From Citrifermentans bemidjiense Bem (GTDB lineage Bacteria > Desulfobacterota > Desulfuromonadia > Geobacterales > Geobacteraceae), in contig NC_011146.1 of assembly GCF_000020725.1 (NCBI RefSeq), positions 1,177,501-1,241,500 of the forward strand: DNA of 64,000 bases, in the 5' to 3' direction. This document shows positions 15,702 to 22,539 of the stretch, in pieces. The translations under genes and the position numbers were made by a program. Under the pieces are notes generated by a model. That model was not told where the DNA came from. It saw only the letters and a program-made list of their open reading frames with translations, and did no database searches. Numbering within the stretch: the stretch's first letter is position 1; the number at the start of each line of letters is the position of its first letter.

Positions 15702-17111
15702 ATGGATGTGCAACGCGTACTGATGATCAGCACCAACAGCGAAACCGTTCCCCAGCCGACGGTCCCAATCGGGGCAGCCTGGGTGGCCGAGGCGTTGCGC
15801 CTGTCGGGGTTCGAGGTGCAATTCCTCGACCTCTGTTTCCAGAAGAAGCCCCTTGCCGCTGTCGAGGACTCCCTCCGCGCCTTTCGCCCCGACGGGATCG
15901 GGCTCTCCATCCGCAACCTCGACAACTGCGACTTCCTCTCTCCCCAGTCGTACCTTCCCGCAGTCAAGGAGATGGTCGATTTCATCAAGACCGTCAGCCG
16001 CGCGAGGACGCTGGTGGGGGGGGCTGGGGTAAGCCTGATGCCGCTGCAGGTGCTGGAGTACCTGGGACTGGATCATGCCGTGGTGGGGGAGGGGGAGCAC
16101 GCAGCGCCCGCCTTTTTTCGTGCCGCGAGCGTCGCCGACGCCTGCCGGGTACCGGGGGTGGTATCCACGCATGGGAGCATGCCGAAGCCGCCGCAGCTGT
16201 CGAACGAGTTCGTGCCGCCGCGGCCCCACAGCTGGGTGGACACGCGGCGTTACCTGGGGATGGAGCCGGTGCTCCCGGTCCAGGGGAAAAGAGGGTGCGC
16301 CAACCGCTGCCTCTACTGCACCTATCACAACGTGGAGGGAGAGGCCTGGCGCATCAGGGAACCCGCGGCCGTGGTCGAGGAGATGTTAAGCGCGATGCGG
16401 CACACCGGCGCCAGGGAATTCGAGTTCGTCGACAGCGTCTTCAACGAGCCGCCGGGGTACCTCGAACTACTGCTGGAAGAGATCCTCAGGAGGGGGGTGC
16501 GGGCGCGCCTCAGCGTCTCATCGCTATCTCCCAAGGGGCTTACCCGCGACCAGGTGAGGCTCATGGAAAGGGCGGGGATGACCTCGCTGGTCATCACCCC
16601 GGAAAGCGCTGCCGACGCCACGCTCGCTGGCTTGGGAAAAGGGTTTGGCGAGGCGGATGTGCATCGTGCGGCAGAGATTCTCTCCGGCTCCAGCATCCGC
16701 GCCCTCTGGTGCTTTCTCGTGGGCGGCCCCTCGGAGAACGGGGAGAGCGTGGCTAAGACGGTCCGCTTCGTGAACCGGCTCCCTCGCAAGGAGAGCGCCT
16801 ACATCACCACCGGGATCAGGATCTACCCCGGCACCGGCGTGCACCGCCTGGCGCTGGAGGAGGGGATGGTCGAGCCGGAACAGAATCTGCTGCACCCAGC
16901 CTTTTATTTCACCAGGGAACTGACCCCGCAAAAGACCATGGAGATGCTGCAACGGGGGGTGTCCGATCTCTCCCGGTGCATCTTCCCTTCGGAGGCCAAC
17001 GAGAAATCGCTTGGCATGCTGCGCCGGCTAGGGACCCTGCTCCGTTTGCCCACCCCCTTTTGGCGCTACGCGGGGTACGCCAAAAGGATTTCCCCCGGCA
17101 GCAGGCGGTGA
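15702..17111 (+). CDS. B12-binding-type radical SAM protein
   Basis: A 469-residue enzyme with an N-terminal cobalamin-binding-like Rossmann domain (about 1-150; PIGAAWVAEALRLSG, GGAGVSLMP) and a radical SAM barrel carrying the 4Fe-4S motif C-x3-C-x2-C at about residues 199, 203 and 206 (GCANRCLYC). The classical DxHxxG cobalamin ligand motif is not evident. Such proteins typically perform methylations or ring rearrangements at unreactive carbons. The start ATG follows AAAAGGAG. It is the first gene of the polyketide cluster running to 21077. Its substrate is unknown; the context suggests tailoring of the polyketide or a lipid. A partner with a similar layout is encoded at 21121-22539 on the other strand. 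Confidence 0.85.
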   Translation: MDVQRVLMISTNSETVPQPTVPIGAAWVAEALRLSGFEVQFLDLCFQKKPLAAVEDSLRAFRPDGIGLSIRNLDNCDFLSPQSYLPAVKEMVDFIKTVSRARTLVGGAGVSLMPLQVLEYLGLDHAVVGEGEHAAPAFFRAASVADACRVPGVVSTHGSMPKPPQLSNEFVPPRPHSWVDTRRYLGMEPVLPVQGKRGCANRCLYCTYHNVEGEAWRIREPAAVVEEMLSAMRHTGAREFEFVDSVFNEPPGYLELLLEEILRRGVRARLSVSSLSPKGLTRDQVRLMERAGMTSLVITPESAADATLAGLGKGFGEADVHRAAEILSGSSIRALWCFLVGGPSENGESVAKTVRFVNRLPRKESAYITTGIRIYPGTGVHRLALEEGMVEPEQNLLHPAFYFTRELTPQKTMEMLQRGVSDLSRCIFPSEANEKSLGMLRRLGTLLRLPTPFWRYAGYAKRISPGSRR

Positions 17112-17214
17112 CTGTCAGCCGTCGGACCTCCGGCAGAAAAAAATTTGTATGTTACAATCCTGCATGGTTCGCCCGGGATGCCGGACGACAAAATGACCTC
17201 CAGGGGGCCCTTCC

Positions 17215-18069
17215 TTGCATTCAATCCACCGTCGGAACCTCGCTGAAACCACACCTGAACCTACGTCTCGCCATGCCGCTTCCCTTCCTGCCGGCTGGCT
17301 TTTGCCGCTTTTGCTGCTGGCCATCACCACGTTCTTCATGGACCCCCTCCCCGCGCAGGGGGCTCCCGTACCGGTCCGTTTCGCCGAGGGGATGGTGCGC
17401 GGGTTCCTGGAGCTGTCGGATGCCGACGGCAAGCGCATCGCCTCCGGTGATTTCCTGCAGGTTCCCCGTGGGGGGGAGCTCAAGTGCCGCACCGTGCTCT
17501 ATTTCAAGGACGGGTCGCTGCACGACGAGTCTGCAGTCTTCACCCAGGAGCGGAACTTCCTGATGAAGAGCTATCACCTGATCCAGAAGGGAAAGGCTTT
17601 CGCGGAGGAAATGGAGGTCTCCCTCGACCGTGCCGGCGGCGGCAAGTACCGGGTGAGCGTTGGGAAACAGGGGCACGAGAAGGTGCTGGAAGGAACGCTT
17701 GACCTGCCGCTCGACGTGTACAACGGGATGGTCCCGACGGTGCTGAAGAACCTCCCCAAAGGGGCCAGGGAGAAGATCCACATGGTTGCCTTCACCCCCG
17801 CCCCCAGGGTGATCGAGCTCGACATGGTACCGGACGGGGAGGATCGGGTGCTGGTCGGCGACCTGGAGAAGAGCGCCGACCACTACGTGCTCAAGCCAAA
17901 ACTCGGCCTGTTGAAGCTCCCCGCGGCGCTTCTGGGGCGCACCCCGCCGGACAACCACATCTGGACCATCACCAAAGACGTCCCCGCCTTCGTCAGGTTC
18001 ATGGGACCGCTGGCGTTCGGTGGCCCGATCTGGCGCATCGAACTCGCCAGCCCGCGCTGGCCCAAATAG
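17215..18069 (+). CDS. Putative exported protein of unknown function in the polyketide cluster
   Basis: About 284 residues. A twin-arginine-free basic N-terminus and a hydrophobic stretch (WLLPLLLLAITTFF, about residues 28-41) followed by AQGA suggest a signal peptide cleaved near residue 49. The mature part is hydrophilic and beta-rich in appearance, without a motif I recognise. The start is uncertain because the only in-frame option upstream of the signal peptide is TTG at 17215, with an AGGGGG stretch before it. It lies between the radical SAM gene (103 bp upstream) and the methyltransferase gene (23 bp downstream), so it probably belongs to the same operon and may bind or carry the product in the periplasm; this is inference. 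Confidence 0.65.
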   Translation: MHSIHRRNLAETTPEPTSRHAASLPAGWLLPLLLLAITTFFMDPLPAQGAPVPVRFAEGMVRGFLELSDADGKRIASGDFLQVPRGGELKCRTVLYFKDGSLHDESAVFTQERNFLMKSYHLIQKGKAFAEEMEVSLDRAGGGKYRVSVGKQGHEKVLEGTLDLPLDVYNGMVPTVLKNLPKGAREKIHMVAFTPAPRVIELDMVPDGEDRVLVGDLEKSADHYVLKPKLGLLKLPAALLGRTPPDNHIWTITKDVPAFVRFMGPLAFGGPIWRIELASPRWPK

Positions 18070-18092
18070 CAAACCGTACGAGGAACCCGGGC

Positions 18093-18800
18093 ATGCCATT
18101 TACGCCGCGAAAACGAACCGGGCTGGAGTTTCTGGATCTCCCCGCCGACGTCTGCAGCGAGGAGGAACTGGAGGGGACCCTGGCGGACCTGAGGGTGGTG
18201 AACCGCTACCTCGGGGACACCAGGGCGCTCTTGAAGCACCTCTCCGCGCAGATAGACGGTAACGAGGCGGTGAGCCTGCTGGATGTCGCCACCGGGTCGG
18301 CCGATCTCCCGGTTGCCGTTGCCGACTGGGCGAGGAAGAGGGGAATCGGGATCTCCATGACCGGGGTGGACATCAACCTCCGCAGCATAGACATAGCCCG
18401 CAAGGTGACGGCCGGTTACCCGGAGATCACGCTCAAGGTAGCCGACGCGCTAGCGCTTCCCTTCCCGGACCGAAGCTTCGATTACGTCGTCTGCAGCAAA
18501 ACGCTGCACCACATGAAAGACCAGGAGGCGGTCTCACTGATCAGGGAGATGCTCAGGGTGGCAAGGCGTGGCTACCTCGTCATCGACCTGAGAAGAAGCT
18601 GGATAGCCTACGGGTTGATCTACCTTTTGACCCGGATCTTCACCAGAAACCGCATCACCCGCTACGACGGCCCGCTCTCCGTGCTGAAATCGTTCACCGC
18701 GGCTGAGCTTGCCGACCTGGCCTCCAAAGCGGGAGCCGGCTCTTTCACCATCAGGCGGGAGCCGTTCTGGCTGCTGGTCCTCTCGGGGGAAATCGGATGA
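18093..18800 (+). CDS. Class I SAM-dependent methyltransferase
   Basis: A 235-residue methyltransferase. Motif I reads LLDVATGSADLP near residue 65, an acidic residue follows in GVDIN (motif II), and LPFPDRSFDYVVCSKTLHH is the post-motif region. A hydrophobic stretch (WIAYGLIYLLTRIF) near residue 170 suggests membrane-associated substrates. The N-terminal pattern resembles methyltransferases encoded beside bacterial type III polyketide synthases. The stop overlaps the next gene's start by four bases (ATGA), implying translational coupling with the U32 protein. Inferred role: O- or C-methylation of the phenolic product. Confidence 0.85.
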   Translation: MPFTPRKRTGLEFLDLPADVCSEEELEGTLADLRVVNRYLGDTRALLKHLSAQIDGNEAVSLLDVATGSADLPVAVADWARKRGIGISMTGVDINLRSIDIARKVTAGYPEITLKVADALALPFPDRSFDYVVCSKTLHHMKDQEAVSLIREMLRVARRGYLVIDLRRSWIAYGLIYLLTRIFTRNRITRYDGPLSVLKSFTAAELADLASKAGAGSFTIRREPFWLLVLSGEIG

Positions 18801-20014
18801 AATTTTCCGTCGCCACAAACTTCCAGCCCGACCTGATTACCGCGATCAAGGGGTATCCGGTCTCCGAACTCTTCGGCAAACTCCCCTCCGACAGCGTGGG
18901 GGGCGGCCGCGCCTCGTTCATGCTGGCCCCCCTGGGACAGGAGCAGTTCCGGGCCCACGTGAGGGAAGCGGGGAAGAACGGGATCGGCTTCAACTACCTG
19001 ATCAACCCCGCCTGTATGGACAACCGCGAGTTCACCCGGCAAGGGCAGGCGGCTCTCGACCAGCTCCTGGATTTCGTGGACGGCTGCGGCGTCACCGCGG
19101 TCACGGTTTCGCTTCCTTTCCTGCTGCCGATCATCAAGAAACGGCATCCGCGGCTCAAGGTGCGTGTCGGCGTCTACGCCCGCGTCGACTGCGTCGCCAA
19201 GGCCCGCTTCTGGGAGGATCTCGGGGCGGACTGCATCACGCTGGAATCCATCGCCATCAACCGCGACTTCGGCATGCTGCAGGCGATACGACAGGCGGTG
19301 CAACTGGAGCTGCAGCTCATCGCCAACTCCAACTGCATGATCTTCTGCCCGCTGTCGGGGCAGCACATGGTGAACCTCTCGCACGCCTCGCAGAAGGGGC
19401 ACGCCAGCCGCGGCTTCATGATCGATTACTGCGCGCTCAGGTGCTCGGCGCAGAAACTGGCCGACCCTTCCCTGTACCTTCGTTCCGAGTTCATCCGGCC
19501 GGAAGATCTGGGGAGCTACACCGAACTTGGCTTTAACTCTTTCAAGATACTGGAGCGCGGCGCACCGACCCCGGTCCTTGTCGAGCGGGTCCGCGCCTAC
19601 AGCGAAGGACGGTTCTCCGGAAACCTGCTGGACCTGATCCAGCCTTACGGATACAAGAGAGAACCGGGCAAGGGGAAGGAGCGGCTGAGCGGCCTGCGCA
19701 GGTTCGCCCGGTACTTCCTGCGCCCCGGCGTGATCAATTTCGCCGGGTTGGTCCGGCTGAAACGGCTGGCGGAGAAGCGGGGGCTCATCGAGGAGCTGGA
19801 AGGTACGCCGGTCTATCTGGATAACGGGAAGCTGGATGGGTTCCTGGCGGGCTTCCGGGGGATCGACTGCCGGAAGACGGATTGCGCGCGCTGCGGCTAC
19901 TGCGCCGCCTGGACCGAGAAGGCGGTGCGGGTGGACCCTCTCTACCGCGACGAGATGCTGCGACTGTACCGCGACGCTTTCGACGAAATGTATTCCGGTG
20001 AATTGTGGGACTGA
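18797..20014 (+). CDS. U32-family Fe-S protein with extra C-terminal cysteine cluster
   Basis: A 405-residue member of the peptidase U32 superfamily (TIM-barrel-like N-terminal part; ADCITLE, NSNCMIFCPLSG). Known U32 members include UbiU/UbiV, Fe-S proteins that hydroxylate ubiquinone precursors without O2, and RlhA/YegQ-type RNA hydroxylases. Four cysteines suited to a 4Fe-4S cluster occur as C180-x3-C184 and C212-x3-C216; this spacing differs from that of UbiU. A second group, C358-x4-C363-x2-C366-x2-C369, lies near the C-terminus and could bind another cluster. The gene is embedded between the methyltransferase (4-base overlap) and the type III polyketide synthase (13-bp gap). Inferred role: anaerobic ring hydroxylation of the polyketide. 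Confidence 0.85.
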   Translation: MKFSVATNFQPDLITAIKGYPVSELFGKLPSDSVGGGRASFMLAPLGQEQFRAHVREAGKNGIGFNYLINPACMDNREFTRQGQAALDQLLDFVDGCGVTAVTVSLPFLLPIIKKRHPRLKVRVGVYARVDCVAKARFWEDLGADCITLESIAINRDFGMLQAIRQAVQLELQLIANSNCMIFCPLSGQHMVNLSHASQKGHASRGFMIDYCALRCSAQKLADPSLYLRSEFIRPEDLGSYTELGFNSFKILERGAPTPVLVERVRAYSEGRFSGNLLDLIQPYGYKREPGKGKERLSGLRRFARYFLRPGVINFAGLVRLKRLAEKRGLIEELEGTPVYLDNGKLDGFLAGFRGIDCRKTDCARCGYCAAWTEKAVRVDPLYRDEMLRLYRDAFDEMYSGELWD

Positions 20015-20027
20015 GGGGGGATCTGTC

Positions 20028-21077
20028 ATGAACAGCAATGTCTTCGTGGGCTCCATCGCCACCGTCGTCCCGCCGTTTTCGGTGGACCAGCAGGCGGCGG
20101 CGGCGCTGATCAAGTCGCATTTCAAGGAAAGCCTGACCGCGCGCGGCCTTGGGCTGATTCGCGCCACCTTCAACCATCCCAGCATCAAGAAAAGGCATTT
20201 CGCCGTCGACACCCCGGCGCAGATCTTCACCGAGACTCCCGATGAGCGGGTAGAGCGTTTCACGGAGCAGGCGGTCCGGCTGGCAGAGCAGGCGGTGCTG
20301 CGGGCGCTTGATAAGGTGGGGGTGGGGGTGAGGGAGGTGAACGGGCTGGTGCTGAACACCTGCACCGGCTACATCTGCCCCGGCCTTTCCAGCTATGTCG
20401 CCGAGCGCCTGGGGCTTCGCTGCGACGCGAGGCTGTACGATCTGGTCGGAAGCGGCTGCGGCGGAGCGGTCCCCAACCTGCAGGTGGCCGAGTCCATCTT
20501 GAGGACGACCGGGGGCATCGTGGTGAGCGTCTCGGTCGAGATCTGCAGCGCCGCCTTCCAGATGGGGAACGACTTAAGCCTCATACTCTCCAATGCGCTC
20601 TTCGGCGACGGCGCCGCGGCAGCTGTTCTCTGGGAGAAACCGGCCGGTTTCGAGTTGGTCGCCTCCGCCGGACGCTACGTGCCGGAAGAGCGCGAAGCAA
20701 TCCGCTTCGTGCACCGGCAGGGACAGCTCCACAACCAGCTCTCCACCGACCTCCCGGAGCTGGTAAGAAAGGCCGCGGCTGAGGTGGTAGGCGATCTTCT
20801 GGGAAGACATTCCCTCTCCATCGGCGACATCGGCGGCTGGGCGCTCCATACCGGCGGTGAAAAGATCGTGAACGCGGTGCGGGACGAGATCGGGATCGAC
20901 GAATCGAAACTATGGGCGACCCGGAAGGTGCTGGAACAGTACGGCAACATGTCCTCGCCCACCGTCTGGTTCGTGGTGGATGAACTGCTGCAGAGCGGAT
21001 TGCGCAAGGGGGAGTGGTGCGTGATGCTCGCCTACGGCGCCGGTCTTTCCGCGCATGCCTATTTGCTGAGAGGCTAA
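20028..21077 (+). CDS. Type III polyketide synthase (chalcone synthase-like)
   Basis: A 349-residue thiolase-fold enzyme that would extend an acyl-CoA starter with malonyl units and cyclise it to a resorcinol or pyrone. The catalytic triad is intact: Cys144 in VGSGCGGAVP, His274 in ALHTGG and Asn307 in YGNMSS. The length is usual for bacterial members. The ATG at 20028 follows GAGGGGGG, so the longer open frame starting at 19836 is rejected. It is the last plus-strand gene of the cluster, with methyltransferase and U32 protein directly upstream. Product and starter are not predictable from sequence; long acyl starters and phenolic lipids are typical of bacterial homologues in such clusters. 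Confidence 0.93.
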   Translation: MNSNVFVGSIATVVPPFSVDQQAAAALIKSHFKESLTARGLGLIRATFNHPSIKKRHFAVDTPAQIFTETPDERVERFTEQAVRLAEQAVLRALDKVGVGVREVNGLVLNTCTGYICPGLSSYVAERLGLRCDARLYDLVGSGCGGAVPNLQVAESILRTTGGIVVSVSVEICSAAFQMGNDLSLILSNALFGDGAAAAVLWEKPAGFELVASAGRYVPEEREAIRFVHRQGQLHNQLSTDLPELVRKAAAEVVGDLLGRHSLSIGDIGGWALHTGGEKIVNAVRDEIGIDESKLWATRKVLEQYGNMSSPTVWFVVDELLQSGLRKGEWCVMLAYGAGLSAHAYLLRG

Positions 21078-21082
21078 AGGCA

Positions 21083-21107
21083 GGGGCTGGGGGCTAGGGG
21101 CTGGGGG
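21083..21107. repeat. G-rich tandem repeat
   Basis: Three near-identical units of GGGGCTGG/GGGCTA type lie between the convergent synthase and radical SAM genes. The four runs of four to five G could form a quadruplex. No terminator hairpin is visible in this gap. Confidence 0.6.
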
Positions 21108-21120
21108 ATAGGCAGAACCT

Positions 21121-22539
21121 TCAAAAACGGTGGCGGGAGCGGAACTGGTCGCCTAGGAACCAGCCGCGTACCAGGTCCAGGTTGTTGAGCAGCACCTTCA
21201 GCGCTCCCTTTTCTCTTCTCCTGACGAAATAGTTGCCGACGAACATCTGCGGACTGAAAAATGCCTTCATGTTCTCCCAGTTCATGATGCGGTTCAACTG
21301 CCGGTTGGTGAGGTGCCTGGTCCTCACGTTGCACATGAATCCTGTGTAGCGCTCCAGCCGGTCGGGGTTCGTGACCAGCCCCTGTTCCAGCAATTCCTGC
21401 CGGATCCGCGTGCCGGGGTACGGCGTGACGCACTGCACGTAGGGGAGATCGACGTGCAACCGCCGCGAGGCGCGAAAGACCTCCCGGATCTCCTCCCGTC
21501 CGTCGCCCGGGTTCCCGACGATGAAGCCCCCCATGACGCCGATGCCGTGCTCGCGCAGACGGCGCACGGCCTGATCCGTTTTCTCCCTGATATCCCCCTT
21601 CTGAAACATGGCGAGTGTTTCCGGCAACACCGACTCGATCCCCAAGAACACCATGGCGAAGTTGGCCTCGGCCAGCGCCGGTATCAACTCTGGGTCGGCG
21701 ACGATGCCGGCCACGGATGTCTGCACCAGGTACTCCATGCCGTTGAGCCCATGCTCCACGATCGCGCGGGCGAGACGGGTGAACCGGGGCGGGTCGAGTG
21801 TGATGTTGTCGTCGACGATCAGCACACTTTGCGTTCCCCGCCGCTTAAGCTCCTTCAGGTCGGCGATCACCCGCTCCTGCGCATGGCAGCGAAAGTTCGC
21901 GCCATACATGCCGGTTATGGAGCAGAAGGTGCAGGTCATGGTGCATCCGCGCGAGGTTTCCACGCAGTCGAGTTTGCGGTCGAAATAGGTGAAGCTGTCG
22001 AGAACGCGCGCGTCCCGTGCCGGCAGCGGCACCCGTTGCAGATCGAGCAGTTGGTTGGTCGGGTTGTGGCGGAAGGTCCCCTCGTCGGACCAGGAAAGAG
22101 CCGGCACCGCCGCCAGGCTCAAATCCCCTTCAAGCGCGTCGACGAGCGCCGCGAACGCCTGCTCTCCTTCGCCTCGTATCAGGTAATCGAAAGGGGGTAC
22201 GGCCGGACCCGAGGTGAGTTCGAGATAGGACAAGGTGGCGTGGTACCCCCCCAGCACCAGCTTCGCGCGCGGCACAGTGTTGCGGCAGATCTCCATCACG
22301 GTCAAAGCGCTCCGGTACTGGAAGCTCATGCTGCTGATGCCAATTACCTGCGGCTGGAATTCGGCAAGGAACGCCTCCAGCCAGGGGCGGATGTTCCGGT
22401 GCACCAGCACCAGGTCGACGATCTTCACCTCGTGTTCGGAAAGCTCCGCCGCGAGCGAGCATAGCCCCAGGTTCGGAACCTTGATGATGCGGTGGAAGTT
22501 GTTTGCCGCGTCGGGCATGGCCAGCAGAAGAATCTTCAT
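21121..22539 (-). CDS. B12-binding-type radical SAM protein, second in cluster
   Basis: A 472-residue enzyme. The N-terminal B12-binding-like domain (about 1-140) includes VPNLGLCSLAAEL and LVLGGYHATL; the radical SAM domain has C199-x3-C203-x2-C206 (GCTMTCTFC), IVDDN and GIES. It belongs to the same broad group as the gene at 15702 but is not a close copy. It is transcribed towards the polyketide synthase, with a 43-bp gap between the two stop codons. Possible activities are radical methylation or another carbon-skeleton modification of the pathway product. The start ATG at 22539 fits the domain start well; its ribosome site is weak. Confidence 0.83.
   Translation of the reverse strand: MKILLLAMPDAANNFHRIIKVPNLGLCSLAAELSEHEVKIVDLVLVHRNIRPWLEAFLAEFQPQVIGISSMSFQYRSALTVMEICRNTVPRAKLVLGGYHATLSYLELTSGPAVPPFDYLIRGEGEQAFAALVDALEGDLSLAAVPALSWSDEGTFRHNPTNQLLDLQRVPLPARDARVLDSFTYFDRKLDCVETSRGCTMTCTFCSITGMYGANFRCHAQERVIADLKELKRRGTQSVLIVDDNITLDPPRFTRLARAIVEHGLNGMEYLVQTSVAGIVADPELIPALAEANFAMVFLGIESVLPETLAMFQKGDIREKTDQAVRRLREHGIGVMGGFIVGNPGDGREEIREVFRASRRLHVDLPYVQCVTPYPGTRIRQELLEQGLVTNPDRLERYTGFMCNVRTRHLTNRQLNRIMNWENMKAFFSPQMFVGNYFVRRREKGALKVLLNNLDLVRGWFLGDQFRSRHRF

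Follow-up and report, generated by a model that had tools for sequence, protein, structure and literature searches.

The srsABC operon of Streptomyces griseus combines a type III polyketide synthase (PKS), a methyltransferase and an FAD oxidoreductase. A type III PKS, a methyltransferase and a ring-modifying redox enzyme are likewise the shared parts of the mycobacterial and Streptomyces polyketide quinone operons, the Planctomycetota operons and the locus described here, except that this locus lacks the FAD enzyme, carries a U32 Fe-S protein in that slot and adds two B12 radical-SAM genes. It would work like an srs or polyketide quinone operon with the U32 protein in the place of the FAD enzyme. 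A second precedent comes from RNA modification, where TrhO is the O2-dependent partner of TrhP and both are found in one organism. The dual character of tRNA hydroxylation, served by the U32 protein TrhP and by an O2-dependent enzyme of another family, is described in PMC6599085. Common to that system and ours is a U32 protein matched with an unrelated O2-dependent enzyme for what would be one hydroxylation; the substrate there is RNA, whereas here the U32 protein and a flavin aromatic monooxygenase (FMO) are alternatives in different genomes.

UbiU-UbiV hydroxylate without O2 and can stand in for the flavin enzymes UbiIHF (PMC6747719, PMC10470549). They pair as a heterodimer in which each chain has one cluster, on a CX6CX16CX38C pattern in UbiU and CXnCX12CX3C in UbiV (PMC6747719). 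The same papers present O2-free ring hydroxylation as rare chemistry with an unsettled oxygen donor (PMC10470549) and U32 proteins of established function as few (PMC6747719). Our U32 protein resembles UbiU-UbiV of Escherichia coli in its U32 domain, its Fe-S cysteines and its apparent replacement of quinone-pathway flavin monooxygenases. It differs in being the product of one gene, with a central CX3CX27CX3C and a C-terminal CX4CX2CX2C pattern, and in belonging to a polyketide pathway, whereas UbiU-UbiV serve an isoprenoid one. The locus has one U32 gene only, with no second, adjacent one to form a UbiU-UbiV-like pair, and no UbiT-like (SCP2) gene was found among the eight genes scanned there by Pfam. 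A limited literature search found no paper linking a U32 protein to a type III PKS.

The window, meaning the whole 64,000-nucleotide stretch of DNA analysed, contains a tight run of methyltransferase, U32 and type III PKS genes with a B12 radical-SAM gene on each side. Rereading the sequence confirmed to the base what the first-pass annotation had reported: the methyltransferase and U32 genes overlap by 4 bases, a 13-base gap separates the U32 stop codon (20012-20014) from the PKS start at 20028, and radical-SAM genes stand at both ends. Its claim of an intact Cys144-His274-Asn307 in the PKS was also correct, as these residues align with the catalytic Cys-His-Asn triad of chalcone synthase (HMMER). 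The features are as follows.

15702-17111, + strand: rSAM1, B12-binding radical SAM protein (Pfam radical-SAM and B12 domains, NCBIfam TIGR04072)
about 17215-18069, + strand: predicted exported protein between rSAM1 and the methyltransferase, start uncertain
18093-18800, + strand: SAM-dependent methyltransferase, UbiE-like (Pfam)
18797-20014, + strand: U32 protein, 405 aa, proposed O2-independent ring hydroxylase (Pfam, cysteines, predicted fold)
20028-21077, + strand: type III PKS, 349 aa, C144/H274/N307 (Pfam, HMMER alignment)
21121-22539, - strand: rSAM2, B12-binding radical SAM protein, BchE/HpnJ/HpnR-like (radical-SAM and B12 domains)

The PKS, scanned in its 5'-extended frame, exceeded the gathering cut-offs of three chalcone-synthase-type Pfam models (75.8, 62.6 and 51.7 bits), including those for the N and C domains of chalcone/stilbene synthases (51.7 and 75.8 bits, each with a cut-off of 27). 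An identity as DpgA, the 3,5-dihydroxyphenylacetyl-CoA synthase, was rejected (NF042429, 164.8 bits against a cut-off of 425). The methyltransferase matched Methyltransf_25 (61 bits) and Ubie_methyltran (49.8 bits) in Pfam; the names UbiE and MenG were discarded, its scores lying far below those models' cut-offs. The best NCBIfam match of rSAM1 is TIGR04072, "lipid biosynthesis B12-binding/radical SAM protein", which it resembles over positions 1-432 of 443; it differs in scoring 347.3 bits, just under the equivalog cut-off of 360, and in having a type III PKS as partner, and we do not transfer the name. Elsewhere in the order its counterparts adjoin the PKS as either a window type (56-98% identity) or a divergent type (32-37%). 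The other radical-SAM protein, rSAM2, reached no NCBIfam model cut-off and is 68-98% identical where present next to the order's PKS orthologues. Both genes occur in 15 of the 17 PKS clusters read in the order, and they accompany the PKS whichever of U32 and FMO is there.

A profile score over the cut-off, a predicted U32 barrel and conserved candidate Fe-S cysteines place the central protein in the U32 family. It matches PF01136 genuinely though weakly (28.7 bits, cut-off 22.4), over residues 87-222 and profile positions 4-132 of 233; no NCBIfam model matched. An AlphaFold2 model is a TIM barrel (pTM 0.83, mean pLDDT 78.7) whose top PDB match is the U32 peptidase 5D88 (Z 18.8, rmsd 3.3, 221 aligned; next Z 15.9). 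Eight cysteines, four central (C180, C184, C212, C216) and four C-terminal (C358, C363, C366, C369), make up two predicted 4Fe-4S clusters. In the PKS-linked group, of which 21 members were aligned, all eight are invariant; among 43 family members, C180, C184, C216, C363 and C369 are present in 43, C366 in 42, C358 in 41 and C212 in 32. Neither the UbiU nor the UbiV cysteine pattern is present. In a tree whose long branches leave the placing of UbiV unsure, the 43 family rows form one side of a 100/100 split; on the other stand UbiU, UbiV, TrhP and RlhA of E. coli and the two other U32 proteins of the same genome, which are encoded megabases away and group with these four. We reject orthology with any of the four E. 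coli proteins; rows L142 and L145, taken in a wrong reading frame, were left out of both this tree and the cysteine alignment.

Among 141 genomes of the order, 30 hold a PKS orthologue at E ≤ 1e-60. A U32 orthologue occurs in 25 of the 141, and all 25 carry the PKS orthologue (24/24 without G094, whose U32 was counted on 33 residues at the edge of a contig). Four of the five PKS genomes without U32 have an FMO gene, placed beside a methyltransferase, and none of the 25 with U32 has one (P = 1.8e-4, relatedness ignored), at identity thresholds set after viewing the match lists (orthologue level in the order; in the phylum, 45% for U32 and 35% for FMO). The fifth, G110, has neither. A 28-residue U32 fragment in a genome with no PKS (G095) and an FMO piece in one where no PKS was found (G109) stand outside the counts, and the FMO of G119, split over two overlapping frames, was counted as FMO. 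In this first PKS clade the two enzymes do not share one slot: the FMO-methyltransferase pair is on a different contig from the PKS in G052 and about 25 kb from it in G119. In the genome of the window, the G065 FMO has no counterpart at E ≤ 1e-10 and the PF01494 matches are weak (best 33.5 bits). Among 16 loci that lack U32, none shows a remnant of it at E ≤ 1.

The PKS tree, which includes 23 of the order's 25 U32 genomes (G028 and G034 are absent, and the 144-residue PKS fragment of G110 was omitted), places FMO on four separate tips. The label needs 4 changes (bootstrap 4-4), of which well-supported branches alone force 2, and a single FMO clade is rejected (p-AU 2.1e-8); a sign test on independent pairs, with 3 supported pairs, had no power (median p 0.5). 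The FMO genome G085 is sister to the U32 genome G082 (95/87), and its methyltransferase nests within those of U32 genomes (100/99), indicating that the same methyltransferase partners either enzyme. One U32 genome (G078, L059) retains the relic of a deleted FMO gene: a stretch of its start (60 bp at 82%, 6.8e-10) and one of its end (43 bp at 84%, 5.2e-5) lie collinear directly before the methyltransferase, where an FMO-bearing relative has its gene. The same scan of reversed loci gave no matches. A second candidate relic, 50 bp before the methyltransferase and in the right direction in G058 (L051, 17708-17745, E 0.027), is at chance level apart from its position, because a match at an unrelated place in the window reaches E 0.008.

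Across the phylum, 32 of 395 genomes have a PKS. U32 of at least 45% identity occurs in 11 genomes, all with a PKS (P = 1.6e-13), and FMO of at least 35% in 3, next to a PKS in each; 18 of the 32 have neither at these thresholds. In a second PKS clade, U32 and FMO alternate in one slot, YceI-PKS-[U32 or FMO]-methyltransferase, with U32 in G363, G497, G204 and G383 and FMO in G362, which is sister to the U32 genomes G403 and G442 (99/100). FMO and methyltransferase lie in one frame in G217. The second clade yielded no FMO relics, and one 22-bp match lay elsewhere at E 0.03. Loose thresholds weaken the exclusivity: G288 and G358 combine a PKS with distant U32 and FMO-like matches, G312 has a distant U32 together with an FMO-like match of 24% near its PKS, and in Omnitrophica G142 a U32 and a FAD_binding_3 protein adjoin the PKS (this genome was labelled "none" in the first PKS tree despite its U32 gene, and U32 in the second-clade tree). 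PKS orthologues of 49-67% outside the order, in G147, G200, G460, G471 and G478, have neither enzyme at the thresholds used; together with G110 they suggest that the hydroxylation may be dispensable or carried out by other means. The first-pass annotation had proposed a search for type III synthases whose neighbouring flavin monooxygenase gives way to a U32 gene, and that search was positive in two distant PKS clades; the deletion relic backs the replacement idea as well. It had also named two outcomes that would count against it, and the data go the other way on both: U32-synthase linkage is conserved, and the U32 protein groups apart from the tRNA/rRNA-modifying proteins.

We propose that the product of the cluster is a type III polyketide lipid. 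In this scheme the PKS would join an acyl starter and malonyl units into a resorcinol-like phenolic ring; the U32 protein, which has both predicted clusters on one chain, would then put a hydroxyl on that ring without O2, with prephenate, suggested for other U32 proteins, as a candidate oxygen donor. The UbiE-like methyltransferase would methylate the ring to give a hydroxylated, methylated phenolic lipid that could be oxidised to a polyketide quinone, and the radical-SAM proteins perhaps alkylate or shape the lipid part. The U32 protein would thereby do the job of the group A flavin monooxygenase of sister genomes. We assign a probability of about 0.72 to this reading, in which U32 is a single-chain, O2-independent ring hydroxylase replacing FMO in a type III polyketide lipid pathway that leads probably to a polyketide quinone.

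The alternative that deserves most weight accepts the enzyme set and disputes the quinone: the product may instead be an alkylpyrone, a C-methylated resorcinol or another envelope phenolic lipid, and we rate this at somewhat under even odds. Among solved PKS, the alpha-pyrone synthase Pks11 is the nearest in sequence (117 bits), and several known products of type III PKS are alkylresorcinols (PMC10896814). Exchange with aromatic flavin hydroxylases, however, fits a hydroxylated ring. YceI-like proteins bind isoprenoid quinones, and their presence in second-clade operons also speaks against a non-quinone product. It is unlikely that U32 belongs to the pathway as something other than the ring hydroxylase, whether as an Fe-S reductase or electron-transfer partner or by placing oxygen elsewhere than the flavin enzyme does. 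G478 keeps PKS, methyltransferase and radical SAM without U32 or FMO, and the C-terminal four-cysteine motif resembles an extra cluster outside the UbiU/UbiV pattern; yet U32 occupies the place of FMO in two PKS clades, and, to our knowledge, group A flavin hydroxylases share no function but hydroxylation with the U32 proteins characterised so far, which disfavours such a role.

Chance, acting through few and incomplete genomes with patchily distributed accessory genes, is a quite improbable source of the apparent complementarity. The first clade has only 4 FMO genomes and the second 3, mostly draft assemblies, but G065, G085 and G119 are 99-100% complete, and the G078 relic and the same-slot swap are independent of absence calls. 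Least credible of all is an incidental linkage in which U32 is an RNA modifier or peptidase. The U32 members RlhA and TrhP do hydroxylate RNA (PMC10470549), but co-occurrence with the PKS is complete in both the order and the phylum sample, and the separation of the six RNA- and UQ-type rows in the U32 tree leads us to reject the RNA-modification reading.

If U32 is the proposed hydroxylase, the aromatic lipid or quinone of such clusters may form without oxygen, and phenolic lipids and quinones credited to aerobic pathways can arise in anoxic sediment. The likely substrate of this single-chain family would be the PKS-derived ring, sister operons with the flavin enzyme in the U32 slot point to the reaction to seek, and one chain may prove more tractable as a model than UbiU-UbiV. 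We consider evenly balanced the broader claim that single-chain U32 proteins with two Fe-S clusters are a novel class of aromatic hydroxylase independent of O2, repeatedly swapped with flavin monooxygenases in type III polyketide lipid pathways phylum-wide. Through it anaerobes could produce polyketide quinones, which may serve them as respiratory carriers in addition to menaquinone. The anaerobic setting of the pathway is something that we infer; a COX1-superfamily gene is present in 45 of the 50 genomes examined (48 with the PKS; G035 and G041 without a PKS orthologue) and absent in G092, G503, G147, G200 and G471. It occurs in all 7 FMO genomes, and O2 tolerance tells little about the swap because most U32 genomes have it too.

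The first-pass annotation was silent on the exported protein. It matched no Pfam or NCBIfam model, its AlphaFold2 model (mean pLDDT 44.6) is useless, and a lipid carrier is our guess at its role; it is found in 8 of the 17 loci compared, at 66-95% identity.

Re-reading of the sequence reproduced the first-pass annotation in its gene set, 4-base overlap, 13-base gap and catalytic residues. Pfam confirmed the B12-binding radical-SAM proteins at both ends of the cluster (rSAM1 and rSAM2), the U32 domain and the type III polyketide synthase (PKS), and showed the methyltransferase to be UbiE-like. The window lies inside one contig of 4,615,150 bases. Its U32 protein shares 98% identity with the Citrifermentans bremense protein and 75-77% with the proteins of Geomonas species. 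One further gene separates rSAM1 from the methyltransferase:

17215-18069, a putatively exported protein with no family match

In other clusters, DUF2147 or YceI-like proteins lie close by.

The U32 gene accompanies the PKS. Across 141 genomes of the order (G and L numbers denote genomes and loci of our comparison sets), a U32 orthologue occurs in 25 (63-100% identity over aligned pieces; G094 is counted from a piece of 33 residues at the end of a contig) and a PKS orthologue (E<=1e-60) in 30, and all 25 U32 genomes carry the PKS. G035 and G041 (same genus) have neither; G095 has a 28-residue U32 fragment and no PKS orthologue. Of the 17 PKS clusters examined in the order, 15 have both radical-SAM genes; the exceptions are L070, whose contig stops at the PKS, and L055, from whose contig rSAM2 is absent.

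The proposal was that the U32 protein takes the place of an O2-dependent flavin monooxygenase (FMO) beside the PKS, and the order bears this out: the 30 PKS genomes comprise 25 with U32, 4 with FMO, 1 with neither and 0 with both. Those without U32 are G052, G065, G085, G119 and G110, the last with a PKS fragment on a 3.4-kb contig. A 400-residue flavoprotein adjoins the methyltransferase next to the cluster in G065 and G085; the G065 protein matches FAD_binding_3 at 166.5 bits, and the FMO is, judged by its sequence, a group A aromatic/polyketide flavin hydroxylase. Searched with the G065 protein, the 141 genomes gave strong matches only in G065, G052, G085 and G119, plus a fragment in G109, a genome in which no orthologue of the PKS turned up; a 28% match in G055, a genome without the PKS, was left out of the count. 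The FMO also adjoins the methyltransferase in G052, on a different contig from the PKS, and in G119, about 25 kb from it. The G119 gene (L078:7481-8697) consists of two overlapping frames beside the methyltransferase, reflecting a frameshift or an assembly error.

Mapped onto the PKS tree, the FMO label requires four changes, of which the well-supported branches force two, and a constraint keeping the four FMO rows together was rejected (p-AU 2.1e-8). G085 (FMO) is sister to G082 (U32) with support of 95/87, and the same partner occurs with either enzyme, since the G085 methyltransferase nests among those of U32 genomes (100/99). G078, a U32 genome of the same genus as G085, retains collinear FMO remnants immediately before its methyltransferase, from the start (60 bp, 82%, 6.8e-10) and the end (43 bp, 84%, 5.2e-5) of the gene, with a weak 24-bp match between them that partly overlaps the second; the remainder is lost. 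Reversed loci in the same scan gave no FMO match at E<=0.05. The U32 gene of G078 lies on the opposite side, beyond the methyltransferase and a DUF2147 gene. These remnants indicate that this lineage once had an FMO in the same place and then lost it.

Partner genes (rSAM1 and the methyltransferase) were exchanged too among genomes with orthologous PKS and U32. In the window (15702-18800), the rSAM1 of window-type genomes is a separate lineage, about 34% identical to the other type, and the window-type methyltransferase is likewise separate, at about 30% identity to its counterparts in the remaining genomes whose PKS and U32 are orthologous.

A second PKS clade, 26-33% identical to the window PKS and its own clade at 100/100, shows the same swap in the same slot: the order YceI-PKS-U32-methyltransferase in G363, G497, G204 and G383 is matched by YceI-PKS-FMO-methyltransferase in G362 (YceI domain Pfam-confirmed in four loci, G497, G383, G362 and G442). 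G362 is sister to G403/G442 (U32) at 99/100. Among 395 genomes sampled from the phylum, 32 have a PKS (E<=1e-20); U32 at an identity of at least 45% occurs in 11, our own included, all 11 with PKS. Distant U32 matches carried no PKS excess (4/34 versus 17/350 without U32; P=0.10, co-occurrence P values here ignoring relatedness and a sign test on independent pairs being without power). In the 10 other close-U32 genomes, U32 directly adjoins the PKS in 5 (G383, G363, G497, G204, G423), is separated from it by a methyltransferase in 2 (G299, G503) or by a large gene that we guess to be exporter-like in 1 (G479), and lies elsewhere in 2 (G403, G442). Three of the 395 genomes (G316, G362, G217) have an FMO at 35% identity or more, the PKS directly adjoining in all three; in G217 (L199:7574-9577) FMO and methyltransferase form a single 667-residue open frame beside the type III PKS. 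At L134:5292-8262 an rSAM2 orthologue (71%) adjoins a very different type III PKS (27%), which suggests a wider association between rSAM2 and type III PKS products.

Counter-evidence comes from G147, G200, G460, G471 and G478, which have PKS orthologues (49-67%) and in which neither U32 nor FMO was found at E<=1e-10. At loose thresholds G288 and G358 each combine a PKS with remote U32 and FMO-like proteins, and G312 pairs a distant U32 with an FMO-like stretch of 24% identity; Omnitrophica genome G142 has, together with U32, a FAD_binding_3 protein beside its PKS. A Pyr_redox_2 flavoprotein adjoins rSAM1 and PKS in G200 (L193:12877-14049), possibly a third solution. The claim that the pathway is anaerobic stands in softened form, given that 45 of the 50 genomes examined carry a COX1-superfamily gene; that superfamily also includes NO reductases.

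The predicted fold of the U32 protein is a TIM barrel (pTM 0.83), its top solved-structure match being the U32 peptidase 5D88 (Z 18.8; next 15.9). Invariant in 21 aligned members are barrel cysteines 180, 184, 212 and 216 and, near the C terminus, 358, 363, 366 and 369; two sets of four suggest two 4Fe-4S clusters in one chain, whereas UbiU and UbiV hold one each, with other cysteine spacings (PMC6747719). A 49-row tree splits the family from E. coli TrhP and RlhA at 100/100, against the alternative that it is a tRNA/rRNA-modifying orthologue; the same split sets apart E. coli UbiU, UbiV and two own paralogues. One group of 22 rows (96/95) contains the PKS-adjacent members together with five others, including G403, G442 and two Omnitrophica; no PKS was found at the loci of other branches.

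While linkage, same-slot replacement, relic, cysteines and fold come from sequence, the mechanism is proposed by analogy with UbiU-UbiV: the U32 protein would hydroxylate the PKS-derived ring without O2. PMC10470549 describes UbiU-UbiV as hydroxylating ubiquinone precursors without O2, also in place of flavin monooxygenases, with prephenate a possible oxygen donor. Our best guess for the product is a polyketide quinone or close phenolic lipid, because precedents include those of Streptomyces griseus and Myxococcus (PMC10896814). Among the papers that our searches listed, none joined U32 with type III PKS. Replacement of an O2-dependent enzyme by U32 is a principle already known for ubiquinone, and also for tRNA. 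What appears to be new is the polyketide setting, the form with two clusters in one chain, and the repeated exchange in nature.

Relatives of the window U32 at 43% identity occur in Candidatus Omnitrophica (L049:428-1648, L050:295-1515); G142 has its type III PKS (E 1e-60) on another contig than U32, and the other genome has weak matches only (best 2e-9). The wider family also includes tandem U32 pairs in a UbiU-UbiV-like arrangement at L115:5226-11430 and L118:2928-9201, where no PKS was found. These pairs, preceded by a Pyr_redox_2 flavoprotein, a LuxE-like acyl-protein synthetase and a LuxC acyl-CoA reductase (Pfam: L115 only), would represent another uncharacterised U32 pathway.
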